From an uncultured Flavobacteriales bacterium (GTDB lineage Bacteria; Bacteroidota; Bacteroidia; Flavobacteriales_D; Parvicellaceae): a stretch of DNA of 64,000 nt. Where the stretch lies: contig CALSRM010000003.1 in NCBI GenBank assembly GCA_943788755.1, positions 1,426,001 to 1,490,000 on the forward strand. The letters run 5' to 3'. A model generated the notes under the pieces. The model made no database searches. It worked only from the letters and a program-made list of their open reading frames with translations, and was not told where the DNA came from. Position numbers and translations under genes: made by a program. Below are positions 53,501 to 63,072 of the stretch, in pieces; positions within the stretch are counted from its first letter, which is position 1, and every line of letters begins with the position of its first letter.

Positions 53501-54016
53501 TTAATTTTCTTGTTCAACTTTAAAACTAAGATGAAGTTTAAAGGCCAATATAAGAATTAATGTAGGCAACGATGATTGCAAAAAGTGCATTAAGCCAAGG
53601 GAAATTAGATAGGTGTTTTCCTGCCAGTTGTAACCTGAATATAAGAACCTCAATCCATAAATTAGTAATGCTGAAGCGAAGATGATTCCGTACAATGTAA
53701 CGGCATATTTAATAATTACCTTTTTCTTATAAATAATGTAAGAAATGACAATACTGAAGATTAAAAAGTAGAAACTAAATAGCATGGTGAACAACCATTT
53801 CAAGTTGCTTAAAGTTTTTATCGATTTTCCTTCTAATAGTTTCTCCATCAATGAGTCAGAGTAATTATTAACCATTGGAAAACCATCTGCACTAAAATTA
53901 CTTAGATAGTGGATTTGGTAATCTAAGTTTTTAAATACGTAGTCTCGCATAAAATCAGAATAAAACAATATAAATCCCAAAATAAATAAGAGTGTTATTT
54001 TAAGTGATTTATTCAC
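53501..54016 (-). CDS. Exosortase F-associated membrane protein
   Basis: 171 residues from GTG 54016, whose GTGA overlaps the xrtF stop by 4 bases. The frame goes on upstream to a TTG at 54067 inside xrtF, which is not the likely start. Helices are seen near 7-24, 86-107, 115-135 and 146-163, with a periplasmic loop after the first. I recognise the layout (short helix, loop with DYQIHYLSNF and LFSFYFLIFSIVISYII) as the membrane protein found beside XrtF in Flavobacteriia. Its job is not known; it may support substrate recognition or transfer by XrtF. Confidence 0.8.
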   Translation of the reverse strand: MNKSLKITLLFILGFILFYSDFMRDYVFKNLDYQIHYLSNFSADGFPMVNNYSDSLMEKLLEGKSIKTLSNLKWLFTMLFSFYFLIFSIVISYIIYKKKVIIKYAVTLYGIIFASALLIYGLRFLYSGYNWQENTYLISLGLMHFLQSSLPTLILILAFKLHLSFKVEQEN

Positions 54017-54591
54017 TTGATTTTGGTTTGTGTAATCCCCGATAATTTCTGAACCCACCAGTACCAAAGCATGAAAATTAGTCCATAAACAACAACTTGA
54101 AAAGTGATGTTATGGTTGAAATCTAACGCTTTGGGGTTTTCAGCAGACATGATTGTAAGTAAGGCTATTCGAACGGCATTTGCTGTATGAACAATAAGTA
54201 TTCCTAATGGTATAAACCATAGTTTCTTTTTCCAGGGTCCAGGGAAAGCTAAAATGAATAATGTGAATAATCCAAAAATCTTTACTCCATTGCAAGGTTC
54301 GCCGATCCAAACACCATGATTAAAAAAGGTGCCTTTTACAGATGTTATTACTATTTCAGTAGAGGTATCTAAGATTGGTTCATAACCAAATATACTTACA
54401 AATACATTTGCGTATTTAGCTAAACCAACCGAAATATTCTTTTGAATATCAACTTGATTAGCATCTGAAGAGAATAGCTTATCTAGGTTATATATATTGT
54501 GATAGAGGCTAAACCATAAAATAGCAAGTCCAGAAAAAATAAGGATGAACTTAATAAATGGGTTTTCGAAAAGTTTTTTCACGCCAAACAT
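54013..54591 (-). CDS. xrtF: Exosortase XrtF
   Basis: 192 residues with about five membrane helices. The three catalytic residues of exosortases are seen in order: Cys100 in WIGEPCNGVKIFG, Arg141 in TANAVRIALLTI and His160 in DFNHNITFQ. Exosortases cut short C-terminal signals (motif, helix, basic tail) of surface proteins and join the product to another envelope component. Start ATG 54591 is 14 bases after the stop of a tiny gene that encodes a matching substrate. The downstream gene is translationally coupled. XrtF-like systems belong to Flavobacteriia. Confidence 0.88.
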   Translation of the reverse strand: MFGVKKLFENPFIKFILIFSGLAILWFSLYHNIYNLDKLFSSDANQVDIQKNISVGLAKYANVFVSIFGYEPILDTSTEIVITSVKGTFFNHGVWIGEPCNGVKIFGLFTLFILAFPGPWKKKLWFIPLGILIVHTANAVRIALLTIMSAENPKALDFNHNITFQVVVYGLIFMLWYWWVQKLSGITQTKIK

Positions 54592-54605
54592 TTTTGAGTG
54601 AGAAC

Positions 54606-54830
54606 TTATTTCTTTTTTATGCTGTCGTAAGCTTTTTTTCCACCAAAAGCTGCACCTATTGCAATTAAGAAACTAATGCCTCCGTCAATAGGCACGCATG
54701 GAGGGGGCCAACAAGGAGCTGCTCCTCCAGCAGGGCCGCCAGGAGGTGCTCCTCCAGCTGGTTGTCCCAGTGCGACGCATGCAAGCATTATAAGTGATAT
54801 TGTTAATAGTATTTTGATATAATTCTGCAT
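54606..54830 (-). CDS. Tiny PID-CTERM protein, candidate XrtF substrate
   Basis: 74 residues from ATG 54830. Signal peptide about 1-22. Then a Gly/Pro/Ala-rich linker (about 24-39), two cysteines framing WPPP (Cys40, Cys45), the sorting motif VPIDGG (PIDG at 47-50), a hydrophobic segment (52-62) and a basic tail with FGGKKAYDSIKKK. This is the tripartite layout of exosortase targets: motif, membrane helix, positive tail. It is the first gene of the operon that encodes XrtF. After cleavage near the motif only about 25 residues would be left, almost a carrier peptide. Substrate status is inferred from architecture and adjacency. Confidence 0.82.
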   Translation of the reverse strand: MQNYIKILLTISLIMLACVALGQPAGGAPPGGPAGGAAPCWPPPCVPIDGGISFLIAIGAAFGGKKAYDSIKKK

Positions 54831-54841
54831 TATTAAGCCTA

Positions 54842-54849
54842 CAAATATA
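54842..54849 (-). promoter_or_regulatory. -7 box of the exosortase operon
   Basis: Reverse strand TATATTTG, exact match, 11 bases before the PID-CTERM ATG, giving a leader shorter than 10 bases. A TTTG upstream has a poor spacing. Confidence 0.45.
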
Positions 54850-55000: not shown

Positions 55001-55034
55001 TTTGTTTTTTGGTTCAAAAGCAATGTTATATTTG
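55001..55034 (+). promoter_or_regulatory. Promoter of the surface polysaccharide cluster
   Basis: TTTG (55001-55004), 22 bases, TATATTTG (55027-55034). The start site should be near 55040, about 25 bases before the TTG start of wzc. This is probably the promoter for the wzc-wzm-wzt genes. Confidence 0.65.
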
Positions 55035-55063: not shown

Positions 55064-57430
55064 TTGAGGGACTCGTTACAAAATATAAAGGAAGAGAAAC
55101 TGATAAGTCTAGAGGACTTAAAATGGATTTGGAGTGCTATAGTTAAGGGTTGGTATCTCTTTATATTAATGCCAGTTATTGTTGGTGCCGTTGGCTTTTT
55201 TTACTCCTATAGAATTACCCCAGAATATTCTGCCAAAATTCAAATTCTTTTGAAATCTAATGATGTCTACGATTACCAATCTTCCATACAGAAAAGTGTA
55301 GGATACGCTCAATCGTATACTGATATTAGAACCCAACAAAGAATTTTGAGTTCTTATGATTTGATTGAAAGAACGTTGTCTAAACTGGATTTCGACATTT
55401 CGTATTATATAGTAGGTCGCGTAAACACGAAAGAGTTTTTTGAGAATATGCCTTTCCATGTGGATATGGAGGTAATTAACAATGGGATTTATGAAATTCC
55501 AATTGAAATTAAAATAATTGATGAAGAAACTTTTGCATTAGAGTTTATGTTGAGAAATTCGAAAGTTATTCGACAGCATAAATTTAATGAAACTGTAATC
55601 ACAAATGAGTATATTATTGAGGTTGAAAGTAGTGATCGGATAAATAAGGCTTCAGTAGCTAACTTGGCTCACATTAATTACCGAATTAAAGCACATGCTA
55701 AAAGTTATTGGGTAGGCAGGATTATGTCAGGAATGACAATAAATAATTTAGAATATACAAGTATTTTGGACATTACGTTAACGGATGAAGTGCCACAGCG
55801 AGCAAAGATGTTCTTGGATACATTAGCACTGGAGTATATCGATTATACATTGACAAGTGAGTTTACGGTAAACGACAATACTTTAGAGTATATTAATAGA
55901 CAATTGGATGAGGTTGTGGAAGTGTTGGATTCAATCGAATTGGAGGTGGATAGTGTTCGAGAGGATAAAGGAATCTTAGATTTATCGAAAGAATCTTCTG
56001 CGTATTTTTCTCAAATGGTAACTGCTGAATCTATACTTAAAGGGTTGCAACTTGATTTGCAATCGATAGATAATTTGAAGAATTATATTATCAATACTAA
56101 GGAAGATAATCTTTTACCTCCTTCCTTTTATGTTTTAAAAAACGACGTGTATTTAGCTAAAGCTTTGAGTGAATTTTACAATGGTCAGATAGCTAGAGTA
56201 AATTTGAAGTATGATGTGAAAGAAGGACATATGGGTTTGGCTAAATTGGATGAGAAAATGAATCTCCAAAGAATAGATATTTTAACTTACATTGAAAATA
56301 CGAAAATAGCCATAGAAGAAAAAATTGAAGAAGTGAAATTACAATTGTATTATTATGAGGGCTTGGTGAAGAAAATTCCAAAATCACAAAGCGATATGTT
56401 ATCTATAGCGCGAAGAATGCAAGTAAACGAGAAACTGTATATGTATTTATTGGAGAAAAGAGCGAACACCTATATTGCAAAATCGGGTATTGTTCCGCAA
56501 ACAAAGGTGATTGAAAAGGCTCGAATTGGTGGTTTGGTGAGTAAAAATAAAGATTCCGTTTTATTGATGTTTGTGATTATTGGACTTGTGCTTGCAGGCG
56601 TTTTTTCTTTATTGAAATATTTATGGTACCACACTTTTGAAAATTCAAAAGAATTGGCTCAGAATACAAGCATTCCTTTATTAGGTAGCCTTCCTTTTGT
56701 AGGAGAGGAAGAGTTGAAATCGGGTGTGCTGCAATCATCTAAGTCGAATATCATTGAGGCGCTAAGAGGGATTCGTACATCTCTTAGCTACATGAATGTA
56801 AATGGTGAATCTAAAGTGCTTCTTGTTACATCCATTCATCCAGGAGAAGGTAAAACTTTTACCTCTAATAACTTGGCTTCTATTTATGCACGTTCCGGAA
56901 AGAAAGTTGTTTTAATTGATTTTGATTTGCATAAACCAAAAGTGCATAAGGTACTCAACTTGGATAACTCTATTGGAAGTTCGGTTTACTTATCAGGGAA
57001 TACAGCGATTGAGAATGTAGTACAAAAAGAGGTTGAAGAAAATTTAGATGTAATAACTAGTGGTCCGGTTCCTCCAAATGCATCTGAATTAATGTTGTCA
57101 AACCAGGTAGAAGAAATGTTTGAATATTTAAAAGAGAAGTATGATTATGTTTTTATTGACACTCCTCCAATTGGTTATATTAGTGATGGTGTCGTATTAT
57201 TAAAGCACGTGGATGCTTCCATTTTTGTTATGAATACCAAAATGGCCAATAAAAAAGGATTGAAGTATTTAGAAGAAATTGTAGAGAAAAGTCAATTAAC
57301 CAATAATGGAATTGTGTTAAATGGAGTTCGTTTGAAGCGTTGGAAATACTATTACGGGAAGTATGGCTATGGCTATGGCTATGGCTATCGGATATGGGTA
57401 CGGCTACGGTTACGGTGGAGATGGTTCTAA
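55064..57430 (+). CDS. wzc: Wzc-like polysaccharide co-polymerase/tyrosine kinase, 3' end frameshifted
   Basis: 788 residues as read. Start is TTG 55064, because the codon before it is a stop. Wzz domain with helix about 29-48, then a coiled-coil periplasmic region and a second helix near 505-525. The BY-kinase domain has Walker A TSIHPGEGKTFTSNNLA (near 590-605), A' VLIDFDLHKPK and B YVFIDTPPIGYISD. The normal tyrosine-rich tail starts at KYYYGKYGYGYG and turns into an Arg/Trp run because of one extra base (C at 57389). Deleting it restores GYGYGYGYGGDGSKGK with stop TAG at 57438-57440, 3 bases before the next ATG. It controls polymer length and export. Confidence 0.92.
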   Translation: MRDSLQNIKEEKLISLEDLKWIWSAIVKGWYLFILMPVIVGAVGFFYSYRITPEYSAKIQILLKSNDVYDYQSSIQKSVGYAQSYTDIRTQQRILSSYDLIERTLSKLDFDISYYIVGRVNTKEFFENMPFHVDMEVINNGIYEIPIEIKIIDEETFALEFMLRNSKVIRQHKFNETVITNEYIIEVESSDRINKASVANLAHINYRIKAHAKSYWVGRIMSGMTINNLEYTSILDITLTDEVPQRAKMFLDTLALEYIDYTLTSEFTVNDNTLEYINRQLDEVVEVLDSIELEVDSVREDKGILDLSKESSAYFSQMVTAESILKGLQLDLQSIDNLKNYIINTKEDNLLPPSFYVLKNDVYLAKALSEFYNGQIARVNLKYDVKEGHMGLAKLDEKMNLQRIDILTYIENTKIAIEEKIEEVKLQLYYYEGLVKKIPKSQSDMLSIARRMQVNEKLYMYLLEKRANTYIAKSGIVPQTKVIEKARIGGLVSKNKDSVLLMFVIIGLVLAGVFSLLKYLWYHTFENSKELAQNTSIPLLGSLPFVGEEELKSGVLQSSKSNIIEALRGIRTSLSYMNVNGESKVLLVTSIHPGEGKTFTSNNLASIYARSGKKVVLIDFDLHKPKVHKVLNLDNSIGSSVYLSGNTAIENVVQKEVEENLDVITSGPVPPNASELMLSNQVEEMFEYLKEKYDYVFIDTPPIGYISDGVVLLKHVDASIFVMNTKMANKKGLKYLEEIVEKSQLTNNGIVLNGVRLKRWKYYYGKYGYGYGYGYRIWVRLRLRWRWF
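57362..57388 (+). repeat. TATGGC hexanucleotide repeat coding for the Tyr-Gly tail of Wzc
   Basis: Four TATGGC units and a final TAT (57362-57388) encode Tyr-Gly repeats. A single C at 57389 directly after them breaks the frame. The unit length of six cannot itself change the frame. Confidence 0.8.
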
Positions 57431-57443
57431 AGGGAAATAGTTC

Positions 57444-58283
57444 ATGGGAAAGTGGGACAAGGAAATTACACCAAAGAAATCACTATTTGATTTAAATATA
57501 AATCAAATATGGAAATTTAGAGATTTACTGTTTTTATTTGTTTGGAGAGATTTTGTTTCGGTTTACAAGCAAACTATCTTAGGCCCATTGTGGTTTTTTA
57601 TACAACCTATTTTAACTTCAATCACTTTTACGATTATTTTTGGAAATTTTGCTCAAATTTCGACAGATGGGATGCCTAAAATAATATTCTACATGGCAGG
57701 CATTACTATGTGGAATTATTTTGCTGATTGCCTAAATAAAACCTCTAACACTTTTGTCGTAAACCAAGGATTGTTTGGTAAGGTTTATTTCCCAAGGTTA
57801 ATTGTTCCGCTTTCTATTATTGTTACCAACCTTTTAAAGTTTGGAATCCAAATAATCCTTTTTATTGTGTTTTGGACTTATTTTTATGTAACGACTGATA
57901 CAATGCAGCCTAACTGGTATATACTTATTTTTCCTCTGTTAATTATTATTATGGCAGCTTTAGGACTAGGGTTTGGTATGGTGATTTCTGCTTTAACTAC
58001 CAAGTATCGTGATTTAACGTTTTTAATCGGATTTGGGGTTCAATTATTAATGTATGGATCTCCAGTTATCTATCCAATATCAACTGTCCCGGAAAAATAC
58101 CAATGGATTATTAAGTTAAATCCGATGACCAGTATAATAGACACGTTTAAACATGCATTTATGGGAACTGGTTCGTTTGATGGATACAACCTCTTGTACA
58201 GCGGTGTTTTTGCAATATGTATTTTAATGTTGGGATTAGTAGTGTTTAATAAGGTAGAGAAATCATTTATTGATACGGTTTAA
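57444..58283 (+). CDS. wzm: Polysaccharide ABC exporter permease
   Basis: 279 residues with six membrane helices, the ABC-2 permease of a Wzm/Wzt exporter. Motifs: FVWRDFVSVYKQTILGPLWFFIQPILTS near the start (the usual RDxxxRYRxSxLGxxW-like box), FFGIHPIV-type PVIYPISTVP near the third periplasmic loop, and a C-terminal VFNKVEKSFIDTV. It exports a lipid-linked polymer across the cytoplasmic membrane. It follows wzc by 3 bases in the restored frame and precedes wzt by 3 bases. Confidence 0.93.
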   Translation: MGKWDKEITPKKSLFDLNINQIWKFRDLLFLFVWRDFVSVYKQTILGPLWFFIQPILTSITFTIIFGNFAQISTDGMPKIIFYMAGITMWNYFADCLNKTSNTFVVNQGLFGKVYFPRLIVPLSIIVTNLLKFGIQIILFIVFWTYFYVTTDTMQPNWYILIFPLLIIIMAALGLGFGMVISALTTKYRDLTFLIGFGVQLLMYGSPVIYPISTVPEKYQWIIKLNPMTSIIDTFKHAFMGTGSFDGYNLLYSGVFAICILMLGLVVFNKVEKSFIDTV

Positions 58284-58286
58284 AAG

Positions 58287-59567
58287 ATGAGTGAAGTAGT
58301 TTTAAAAATAGAGAATGTTTCTAAACAGTACCGATTAGGACTTGTTGGAACAGGTACTTTGGGTCATGATTTAAAACGATGGTGGTATTTGGTGCGGGGT
58401 AAAGATGACCCTTATTTGGAGATTAGCGAAGTAAATGATACAGAGGTAAAAGGGGGCCAATATGTTAATGCGTTGGCAGCTATTAACCTTGAAATAAAAA
58501 AAGGAGAAGTTGTAGGGATTATTGGTGAAAATGGAGCGGGTAAATCCACTTTATTAAAATTATTGTCCGAAGTCACCAATCCCACAACGGGTTCAATAAA
58601 AGTTAAGGGGAAAATTGCTGCGTTATTGGAAGTCGGTACGGGCTTTCACCCAGAGCTTACAGGTAGAGAAAATATATTCTTAAATGGGGCTATTTTAGGA
58701 ATGAATAAAAAGGAAATTGACTCAAGAATCGAAGAAATAATTGATTTTTCTGGAGTTGCTAAATATATTGATACGCCAGTAAAGCGATATTCAAGTGGTA
58801 TGAAAGTCCGATTAGGATTTGCTGTTGCAGCTCATTTAGAACCAGATATTTTGATTGTGGATGAAGTATTAGCCGTTGGGGATGCTGAATTTCAATCTAA
58901 AAGTATTGGGAAGATGAAAGATGTTGCATCCGAGGGTAGGACTGTTTTGTTCGTTAGCCACAATATTGTGTCAATTAAATCTCTATGTGATAGAGTTATT
59001 GTCCTGGATAAAGGAGAGGTTGTGTGTAGAGGAGGAGTTGATGAAGCAGTTTCCTATTATTTAAACTCTGCGAAGGAAAGTATCGCTATTCCATTATGTG
59101 ATAGAGAGGATAGGCAAGGAAATGGTAAAATTAAAATTACAGATTGTTATTTTATTGATGATGCAGGAATGAAATCTAAGGAACTAATCTCAGGTTTATC
59201 TGGAAAGCTGATATTAGAGTATGAGAAAAGTGGACAGCTGAACCCTCAAGATCTGTTTGTAGGAGTGAATTTTTTTGATGAAAATGATATTGTTCAAACT
59301 GTTATAGCCAATGACGAACTTGGAGTAAAATTTGATGAAATTGACAATAAGGGGTTTTTTACAATTGAGTTTGAAAAGTTAGCTTTTCGAGCGGGTAGAT
59401 ATCATTATTCTCTTTTTATCAGTGAAAAGCTTAACAATTCTGCAGAACACGTCAAACTAGATGTTATTCAGAATGCTGGGGAATTTTTAGTTGCTCAAGG
59501 AGATTTTTGGGGAGTAGGAAATGTTAATCGACCTAAAGGGTTTATTATGGATGTTAAAATGTATTAG
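58287..59567 (+). CDS. wzt: Polysaccharide ABC exporter ATPase with C-terminal carbohydrate-binding domain
   Basis: 426 residues. The ATPase part (about 1-250) carries Walker A GIIGENGAGKSTLLKLLS, the ABC signature YSSGMKVRLGFAVA, Walker B ILIVDEVLAVGD and the H-loop VLFVSHN. The extra C-terminal 150 residues (about 275-426) match the Wzt_C beta-sandwich that recognises the capped end of the polymer. So export length or capping may be controlled here. It pairs with the upstream wzm. The next gene follows in 14 bases. Confidence 0.94.
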   Translation: MSEVVLKIENVSKQYRLGLVGTGTLGHDLKRWWYLVRGKDDPYLEISEVNDTEVKGGQYVNALAAINLEIKKGEVVGIIGENGAGKSTLLKLLSEVTNPTTGSIKVKGKIAALLEVGTGFHPELTGRENIFLNGAILGMNKKEIDSRIEEIIDFSGVAKYIDTPVKRYSSGMKVRLGFAVAAHLEPDILIVDEVLAVGDAEFQSKSIGKMKDVASEGRTVLFVSHNIVSIKSLCDRVIVLDKGEVVCRGGVDEAVSYYLNSAKESIAIPLCDREDRQGNGKIKITDCYFIDDAGMKSKELISGLSGKLILEYEKSGQLNPQDLFVGVNFFDENDIVQTVIANDELGVKFDEIDNKGFFTIEFEKLAFRAGRYHYSLFISEKLNNSAEHVKLDVIQNAGEFLVAQGDFWGVGNVNRPKGFIMDVKMY

Positions 59568-62055: not shown

Positions 62056-63072
62056 ATGTTAGATTTAAATGGTAAGTCTGTTTTGATAACTGGAGGGACG
62101 GGTTCTCTTGGTAAAGCACTTACAAAAAGAATATTTAAAGAGTATCCAGAAGTAAAAAGGTTGGTTATTTTTTCAAGAGATGAGCAAAAACAATTTGTAA
62201 TGGCTCAAGAATTCCCACATGAAAAGTACCCTGCAGTTCGATTTTTTATTGGAGACGTTAGAGATAAGGATAGGTTGGTTAGAGCTTTTCAAGGGGTTGA
62301 TTATGTTATCCACGCAGCAGCAATGAAACATGTTCATTTAGCAGAATACAATCCATCTGAATGCATAAAAACCAATGTTAATGGAGCGGAGAACGTAATT
62401 CATGCTAGTTTAGAAACGAAGGTTTCAAGGGTAGTGGCACTGTCAACAGATAAGGCATGTGCCCCAATAAACCTTTATGGCGCAACAAAATTAACTTCAG
62501 ATAAATTATTTGTTGCTGCCAATAATATCAAAGGATGGTCTGATATTAAGTTTTCGGTTGTGAGGTATGGAAATGTGATGGGTTCAAACGGCTCTGTTAT
62601 TCCTTTTTTTATGAATAAACGTAAAGAAGGTTTTTTACCAATTACAGATCCTAGTATGACTCGCTTCAATATACCTCTTGAGGGAGGTGTTGATATGGTT
62701 CTATATGCTTTAGACAATGCATGGGGAGGTGAAATATTCGTTCCAAAAATAGCATCTTATAAAATAGGGGATGTGGCAAAAGCGATAGCTCCTAATATTG
62801 AGCATAAAATTATAGGAATTAGACCAGGTGAAAAAATACATGAAGAAATGATTACGCACTCTGACTCTTTCAACACGTATGATATGGGGAAATATTATGC
62901 AATACTGCCTACCATTCCCAACTGGAGCGTTGATAAATACGTGTCCGAATTTTCAGCAACTAAGGTAGAAGAAGGATTTGAATATAATTCCAACGAAAAT
63001 ACCGAATGGGAAACACCTGAATCTTTAAGAGAATTGATAAAAATACATGTAGACCCTTCATTTGAAGTTTAA
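62056..63072 (+). CDS. pseB: UDP-N-acetylglucosamine 4,6-dehydratase (inverting)
   Basis: 338 residues. The first step to pseudaminic acid: UDP-GlcNAc to the 4-keto-6-deoxy-beta-L-arabino-hexos-4-ulose. NAD(P)-binding motif LITGGTGSLGKALTKRIF at residue 8. The catalytic set shows ALSTDKACAPINLYGATKLTSDKL (Asp-Lys pair and Tyr-x3-Lys). FSVVRYGNVMGSNGSVIPFF and the C-terminal EMITHSDSFNTYDMGKYYAILP confirm PseB. It overlaps the pseC start by one base. The preceding gap of 57 bases has an AAAAAGGAG stretch but no clear promoter. Confidence 0.95.
   Translation: MLDLNGKSVLITGGTGSLGKALTKRIFKEYPEVKRLVIFSRDEQKQFVMAQEFPHEKYPAVRFFIGDVRDKDRLVRAFQGVDYVIHAAAMKHVHLAEYNPSECIKTNVNGAENVIHASLETKVSRVVALSTDKACAPINLYGATKLTSDKLFVAANNIKGWSDIKFSVVRYGNVMGSNGSVIPFFMNKRKEGFLPITDPSMTRFNIPLEGGVDMVLYALDNAWGGEIFVPKIASYKIGDVAKAIAPNIEHKIIGIRPGEKIHEEMITHSDSFNTYDMGKYYAILPTIPNWSVDKYVSEFSATKVEEGFEYNSNENTEWETPESLRELIKIHVDPSFEV

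Follow-up and report, generated by a model that had tools for sequence, protein, structure and literature searches.

Beside a polysaccharide export cluster in a marine flavobacterial genome lies an exosortase gene, preceded by a gene for a protein of only 74 residues. The locus raises the question of whether so small a protein is a substrate made for this one enzyme and, if so, what the pair does at the cell surface. Exosortases owe their name to the sorting of PEP-CTERM proteins, and members of the superfamily have in common substrate export, membrane retention, and recognition at a motif. The window considered here is the whole 64,000-nucleotide stretch of DNA that was analyzed; the features under discussion are collected in Table 1.

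Table 1. Features of the exosortase operon and the divergent polysaccharide cluster, in window coordinates
Feature	Position	Strand	Basis
XrtX-associated-type membrane protein (partner), 171 aa, GTG start	53501..54016	minus	NF046082 best match, position
XrtX-like exosortase, 192 aa, Cys100/Arg141/His160	54013..54591	minus	TIGR04178, PF09721, NF046081, tree
Mini-gene, 74-aa PID-CTERM protein, putative sole substrate	54606..54830	minus	NF046080 match and conservation
Mini-protein layout: predicted signal peptide 1-22, mature from Q23, CWPPPC 40-45, PIDGG 47-51, then TM and Lys tail			
Bacteroidota -7 box of mini-gene operon, TATATTTG	54842..54849	minus	TAnnTTTG match
-7 box of divergent wzc operon, TATATTTG	55027..55034	plus	TAnnTTTG match
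wzc, polysaccharide co-polymerase/tyrosine autokinase, TTG start, exosortase-linked subfamily	55064..57430	plus	TIGR01007, 173.8 bits, over cut-off
wzm-type polysaccharide ABC permease	57444..58283	plus	Profile match below equivalog cut-offs
wzt-type polysaccharide ABC ATPase	58287..59567	plus	Profile match below equivalog cut-offs
pseB	62056..63072	plus	TIGR03589, 501 bits, over cut-off
pseC	from 63072, continues past window end	plus	Read in L384

The translated mini-gene reads, in order, MQNYIKILLTISLIMLACVALG-QPAGGAPPGGPAGGAAPCWPPPCVPIDGG-ISFLIAIGAAFGG-KKAYDSIKKK, with a Gly/Pro/Ala spacer between Gln23 and CWPPPC and a C-terminal tail of the form KKxY...KKK. The first-pass annotation had described it as a PID-CTERM protein with a Gly/Pro/Ala stretch, CWPPPC, and PIDG, and the NCBIfam PID_CTERM model (NF046080) agrees, matching residues 46 to 69 at 38.8 bits against a cut-off of 26. 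Among 25 homologues, the hydrophobic N-terminus of the predicted signal peptide is followed by an invariant Gln (Gln23), and Cys40, Trp41, Pro42, Pro43, Cys45, Pro47, and Asp-Gly-Gly at 49-51 are equally fixed while the Gly/Pro spacer drifts in length. The string CWPPPC(I/V)P(I/V)DGG is almost invariant across the mini-proteins of the family, with CWPPSTC at one locus. Because the loop is nearly invariant beside a freely varying spacer, we argue that it has a function, perhaps contributing to the recognition site. A chance open reading frame is ruled out, since the gene is kept in nine genera of the family survey and has a within-genus dN/dS of 0.11 to 0.26, in the same range as neighboring genes and indicative of purifying selection. 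Likewise rejected was a lipoprotein reading of the string IMLAC, whose Cys is not conserved, against the invariant Gln23. The mini-gene probably heads a transcript of its own, because at 24 of 26 loci TAnnTTTG occurs 11 to 31 nucleotides 5' of its start, compared with 1.35 expected from shuffling.

The exosortase gene begins 14 nucleotides downstream of the mini-gene (ORF coordinates). Its product belongs to the exosortase superfamily, with 61.3 bits against TIGR04178 (cut-off 23) and 32.9 bits against PF09721 (cut-off 25.7), and the Cys100, Arg141, and His160 read from the sequence at first pass are present and invariant in 25 homologues. Its earlier naming as XrtF is to be revised. The best match among specific exosortase models is XrtX (NF046081), at 143.5 bits under a cut-off of 170; the XrtF model (TIGR04128) gives a lower score of 86.8 bits, under its cut-off of 90. 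In a phylogenetic tree, a branch with support 90 sets the exosortases of the order off from the XrtX enzymes of other classes, and XrtF is separate from them with support 100. True XrtF genes also stand in a different neighborhood, without an adjacent mini-gene, so that model scores, gene neighborhood, and tree together rule out the XrtF identity. The enzyme is best called a member of an XrtX-like sister group, a term we prefer to XrtX proper because no exosortase of the window's family attains the XrtX cut-off of 170.

The third gene, for the membrane partner, starts at a GTG inside the GTGA overlap with the exosortase stop, which bears out the coupling proposed earlier, and it holds the equivalent position in the loci of relatives. 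Its best match is the XrtX-associated family (NF046082), at 37.3 bits and under the cut-off of 75; the XrtF-associated family, to which the protein had first been assigned, yields only 16 bits. AlphaFold models were obtained for the exosortase (pLDDT 87) and for the partner, which is predicted to consist entirely of helices (pLDDT 94); a fold match search of the PDB gave no useful solved structure resembling either protein. Separately, synonymous divergence from genus relatives is higher in the partner gene (pS of ∼0.84) than in the exosortase gene (0.57) or the mini-gene (0.5 to 0.6), hinting at recombination at this gene.

Profile searches of the window genome (97% complete, in five contigs) retrieved a single exosortase and a single PID-CTERM protein over the cut-off. 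The first-pass annotation had suggested looking for further PIDGG tails, and neither the curated PID-CTERM model nor an order-specific profile found a second substrate in this genome. From this one-to-one composition, we infer a single-substrate exosortase system with the mini-protein as its dedicated substrate. In a survey of 39 genomes of the family (Parvicellaceae), many of them incomplete, the exosortase is present in 27 genomes from nine genera, at 28 loci, and the mini-gene lies directly 5' of it at 27 of these. The remaining locus (L025) ends at a contig end, and a second fragment of the same genome (L034) has the mini-gene, which is accordingly found directly upstream in all 27 exosortase-positive genomes. 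The concern that most relatives keeping the exosortase might lack the mini-gene is thus not borne out, and the idea of a self-contained operon of exosortase, substrate, and partner stands. The pairing of enzyme and substrate is well supported.

The pair is seen again in loci of six more families of the order (f2, f3, f59, f64, f65, and f66), where variants of a two-cysteine, Pro-rich loop directly precede the sorting motif: CWTPEC, CWDPEC, CFPPPC, CGPPFGPPC, and CGVAPYPPC. In two genera of f3 (L219, L222, and L224), longer substrates with many extra cysteines, in open frames of about 115 to 195 residues, replace the tiny peptide, and the exosortase and Wzc still adjoin. At L192:5032-5292 and L194:2119-2376, a second mini-gene of the PID-CTERM type, with a CWDxxC loop, has no exosortase near and lies directly 3' of genes for a DegT aminotransferase and a WcaJ-like sugar transferase.

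On the other side of the operon, the divergent wzc-wzm-wzt-pse cluster with its own promoter, as first annotated, was recovered with a -7 box. Beyond PseC, a locus extending past the window (L384) carries apparent pseudaminic acid synthesis genes, an AsnB-type amidotransferase, and glycosyltransferases; genes after PseB were named by sequence rather than by model scores. The amidotransferase gene lies within the polysaccharide cluster, at L384:12255-14000, and a related protein has been discussed alongside the linking sugar of the type IX secretion system (T9SS) (PMC7468200).

All 20 family loci examined have a Wzc gene as the divergent neighbor, and most loci of the order's other families also have a divergent Wzc near the exosortase, in f2 at a distance of a few kilobases. 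Synteny alone is weak evidence, because the downstream flank of glyA, fah, and relA is also kept in most family loci. In genus g9 and family f3, however, the glyA-fah flank differs and Wzc stays. The genomes hold a second, unlinked type of Wzc, and the linked position is always taken by one subfamily: in a Wzc tree from a quick search, with two long branches, an SH-aLRT support of 99 separates the 41 linked Wzcs, drawn from six families, from 19 unlinked ones. Within the family, 26 of the 27 exosortase-positive genomes have the linked Wzc, and in the other one the locus is interrupted by a contig end; none of the 12 negative genomes has it (Fisher, 3e-9), though 7 of these come from a single genus and several are incomplete. 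Co-inheritance of exosortase and Wzc can partly reflect synteny and shared deletion. Taken together, adjacency, co-occurrence, and subfamily membership lend substance to the connection between sorting and polysaccharide export that had been offered at first pass. Near-complete genomes of genus g6 in family f1 (e.g., G017 and G021) lack the exosortase, the mini-gene, and the linked Wzc and retain the unlinked one.

Substrates of this size are not peculiar to the window. PID-CTERM proteins scored over the cut-off in 62 of 392 genomes of a phylum-wide sample, chiefly where an XrtX-type exosortase occurs; most are short open frames of about 60 to 150 residues (e.g., ...AQPGLPSAPSQAPIDGGLGLLAAAGGAYAIKKLRDKK), with at most nine per genome. 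This distribution of predicted proteins suggests that tiny substrates are the rule in Bacteroidota, and the impression that so small a substrate is exceptional can be set aside. In other classes, most PID-CTERM mini-genes lie away from the exosortase. There, 47 of 56 tiny PID-CTERM genes are directly 3' of, and on the same strand as, a T9SS cargo gene, compared with 33 of 219 control genes; the count is rule-based, the controls come from the same, enriched loci, and the sample favors high-scoring matches, mostly from family f25. All 10 of the upstream-encoded proteins tested have a T9SS type A tail (the paired genes are found at loci L226-L245 and L273-L307). Genomes counted in other families have 22 to 122 such tails; for the window genome, the count is at least 128.

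The association with polysaccharide genes may be particular to the order, because elsewhere the tiny substrates are found with genes for T9SS cargo instead. In f25, the XrtX gene (L367, L368, L372, and L378) directly follows genes for nucleotide-sugar dehydrogenases, a Gfo/Idh oxidoreductase, a hexapeptide acyltransferase, and a DegT aminotransferase, an operon that, by protein family and gene order only, looks like a Wbp-type diamino-uronic acid pathway. In Porphyromonas, the linking sugar of the T9SS is a product of the Wbp pathway (PMC7468200), and the gene order in f25 would fit an amino-sugar acceptor. As a further arrangement, in family f37 of another class (L370 and L382), XrtX is accompanied by a divergent Wzc and, some 3 kb downstream, by a gene for T9SS cargo.

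The same search for a paired gene was informative for XrtF. No mini-gene adjoins XrtF at the loci of the Flavobacteriaceae-type family f7, where the neighborhood differs from the window's. Three XrtF genomes have a PID-CTERM-like mini-gene at ribE-pdxA instead, and a further XrtF genome, G059, encodes MKMINKITTVVFVLLGGLSIFAQPPGPGPGPPEPPAPIDGVGLLILLLAAILLGIYVIYKHKLKTKALV at this locus. A profile of this gene run over 119 genomes of f7 found both genes in 79, XrtF only in 3, the mini-gene only in 2, and neither in 35 (Fisher, 3e-24); the 2 mini-gene-only cases are false, being weak matches inside ORFs of nearly 700 residues. Among 30 loci read, ribE adjoins the candidate in 29 and pdxA is near in all 30 (L311:4896-5075, L308, L309, L313-L342, and L363 are loci of this kind). 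The predicted proteins have 60 to 75 residues and are encoded convergently with ribE; they comprise a signal peptide, Gln, a Pro-rich spacer, P[IV]DG, a TM segment, and a Lys tail and have no Cys loop. We consider this gene a candidate for the XrtF substrate. Some of these mini-genes are presumably already called PID-CTERM in public annotation. In Flavobacterium johnsoniae, xrtF and its partner gene are required for colonization and biofilm formation, and the substrates were left to future work (PMC10936215).

How might the three genes of the window act together? The reading we favor, to which we assign slightly less than an even chance, is that of a single-substrate exosortase that tags an envelope glycan of the Wzc-linked cluster with a short peptide. 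The signal peptide would export the 74-residue protein, and the C-terminal helix would retain it in the inner membrane. There, the XrtX-like enzyme, working together with its small membrane partner as a cysteine transpeptidase, would cut at or near PIDGG; thiol chemistry has been proposed for exosortases (PMC1569441). The cut would release a Gln-Gly/Pro-Cys-Trp-Pro-Pro-Pro-Cys peptide of about 25 to 29 residues, probably with an N-terminal pyroglutamate, whose new C-terminus would be joined to an amine on an envelope or lipid-linked glycan from the Wzc-Wzm-Wzt cluster. The product would be a surface glycan bearing a peptide tag, in which the two cysteines probably form a small disulfide-closed Pro loop that could anchor or cross-link partners on the cell surface. 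What the analysis shows of this scheme is the genes and how they are conserved, together with the one-to-one pairing and the linked Wzc subfamily; cleavage, transfer, the glycan acceptor, and the disulfide are its predicted parts, as is the carrier or anchor role suggested at first pass.

Other readings have to be weighed against glycan tagging. The pairing with T9SS cargo in other classes invites the view that the peptide is a surface adaptor for such cargo, itself placed by the exosortase on an anchor of lipid or sugar and holding the cargo by a disulfide or through PorU-type transfer, with Wzc supplying only the carrier glycan. The 47 of 56 tiny genes directly 3' of type A cargo, the tails in 10 of 10 upstream proteins, the abundance of these tails in the window genome, and the Wbp-like XrtX operon of one family, resembling the pathway of the Porphyromonas linking sugar (PMC7468200), all speak for it. 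However, there is no T9SS cargo beside the mini-gene in 20 loci of the order, and the T9SS-paired peptides lack the CWPPPC-type loop; we consider this adaptor role unlikely for the window. It is also conceivable that the association with Wzc is mere synteny, the operon having come to lie beside a capsule cluster by chance, as the equally conserved adjacency of glyA, fah, and relA would allow. Such an accident fits poorly with the loci of g9 and f3, where Wzc is retained next to another downstream flank, and with the behavior of the linked Wzc, which is never the unlinked paralogue and is lost together with the exosortase. We give it a low probability.

Strict pairing with a single Wzc subfamily across divergent promoters could instead mean that the peptide regulates Wzc, its processing switching oligomerization or polymer length, in which case it would not be a product at all. 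A Pro/Gly spacer of variable length is unlike a precise regulatory ligand, though, and neither the XrtF candidate substrates nor the T9SS-paired peptides go with Wzc, so that this role appears quite improbable. That the peptide leaves the cell to act as a small signal or an antimicrobial would be in keeping with a size of about 25 residues, a signal peptide, and two conserved cysteines, but we regard it as very unlikely: the Gly/Pro composition is of low complexity, relatives have structural surface proteins as partners, and no conserved exporter, immunity, or receptor gene adjoins the mini-gene in the loci of the order.

The glycan-tagging reading can be extended to the phylum. Bacteroidota exosortases (XrtX, XrtX-like, and XrtF) might all be peptide-tagging enzymes that place tiny, purpose-made peptides onto envelope glycans through a T9SS-like amino-sugar linkage, as anchors for polysaccharide in this order, for T9SS cargo in other classes, and for the biofilm surface layer in the case of XrtF in F. 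johnsoniae. In this full breadth, we hold the generalization to be possible but doubtful. More narrowly, small purpose-made peptides seem, from the predicted proteins, to be what Bacteroidota exosortases process. Among the papers searched, none mentions PID-CTERM, or XrtX as an exosortase; a 2012 paper on archaeosortases and exosortases may mention tiny dedicated targets. In one order, strict operon pairing ties a tiny substrate to its own enzyme, and the same pairing logic points to a specific gene of about 65 residues as the XrtF substrate. Three surface systems that are usually studied apart, namely, exosortases, Wzc-dependent polymers, and T9SS cargo, are thereby joined.

Among known systems, the PID-CTERM/XrtX set (NF046080, NF046081, and NF046082) has the same trio of a tiny PID-CTERM protein, an exosortase, and an associated membrane protein. 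The order departs from it in that its exosortase and partner score under the curated cut-offs and in that it usually has one substrate per genome, beside the enzyme and with a Cys-Pro loop before PIDGG, whereas in other classes an XrtX genome can carry as many as nine scattered substrates, mostly paired with T9SS cargo. The XrtF system (TIGR04128 and TIGR04127; Fjoh_1448/1449 in F. johnsoniae) is likewise a Bacteroidota exosortase with a small membrane partner, but it forms a separate clade without an adjacent substrate, and its candidate substrate at ribE-pdxA has no Cys loop. The EpsH/XrtA-PEP-CTERM system of Proteobacteria resembles the window in that the exosortase gene stands beside a chain-length determinant and other exopolysaccharide genes (PMC1569441); it differs in having many PEP-CTERM substrates per genome rather than one, and the window Wzc scores well under the TIGR03018 and TIGR03007 cut-offs. 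Finally, the step proposed here is akin to that of the T9SS sortase PorU, by which a protein C-terminus is transpeptidated to an envelope sugar of A-LPS (PMC7468200). PorU, unlike the window's exosortase, is a gingipain-family enzyme of the T9SS attachment complex and acts on large cargo with an 80-residue signal.
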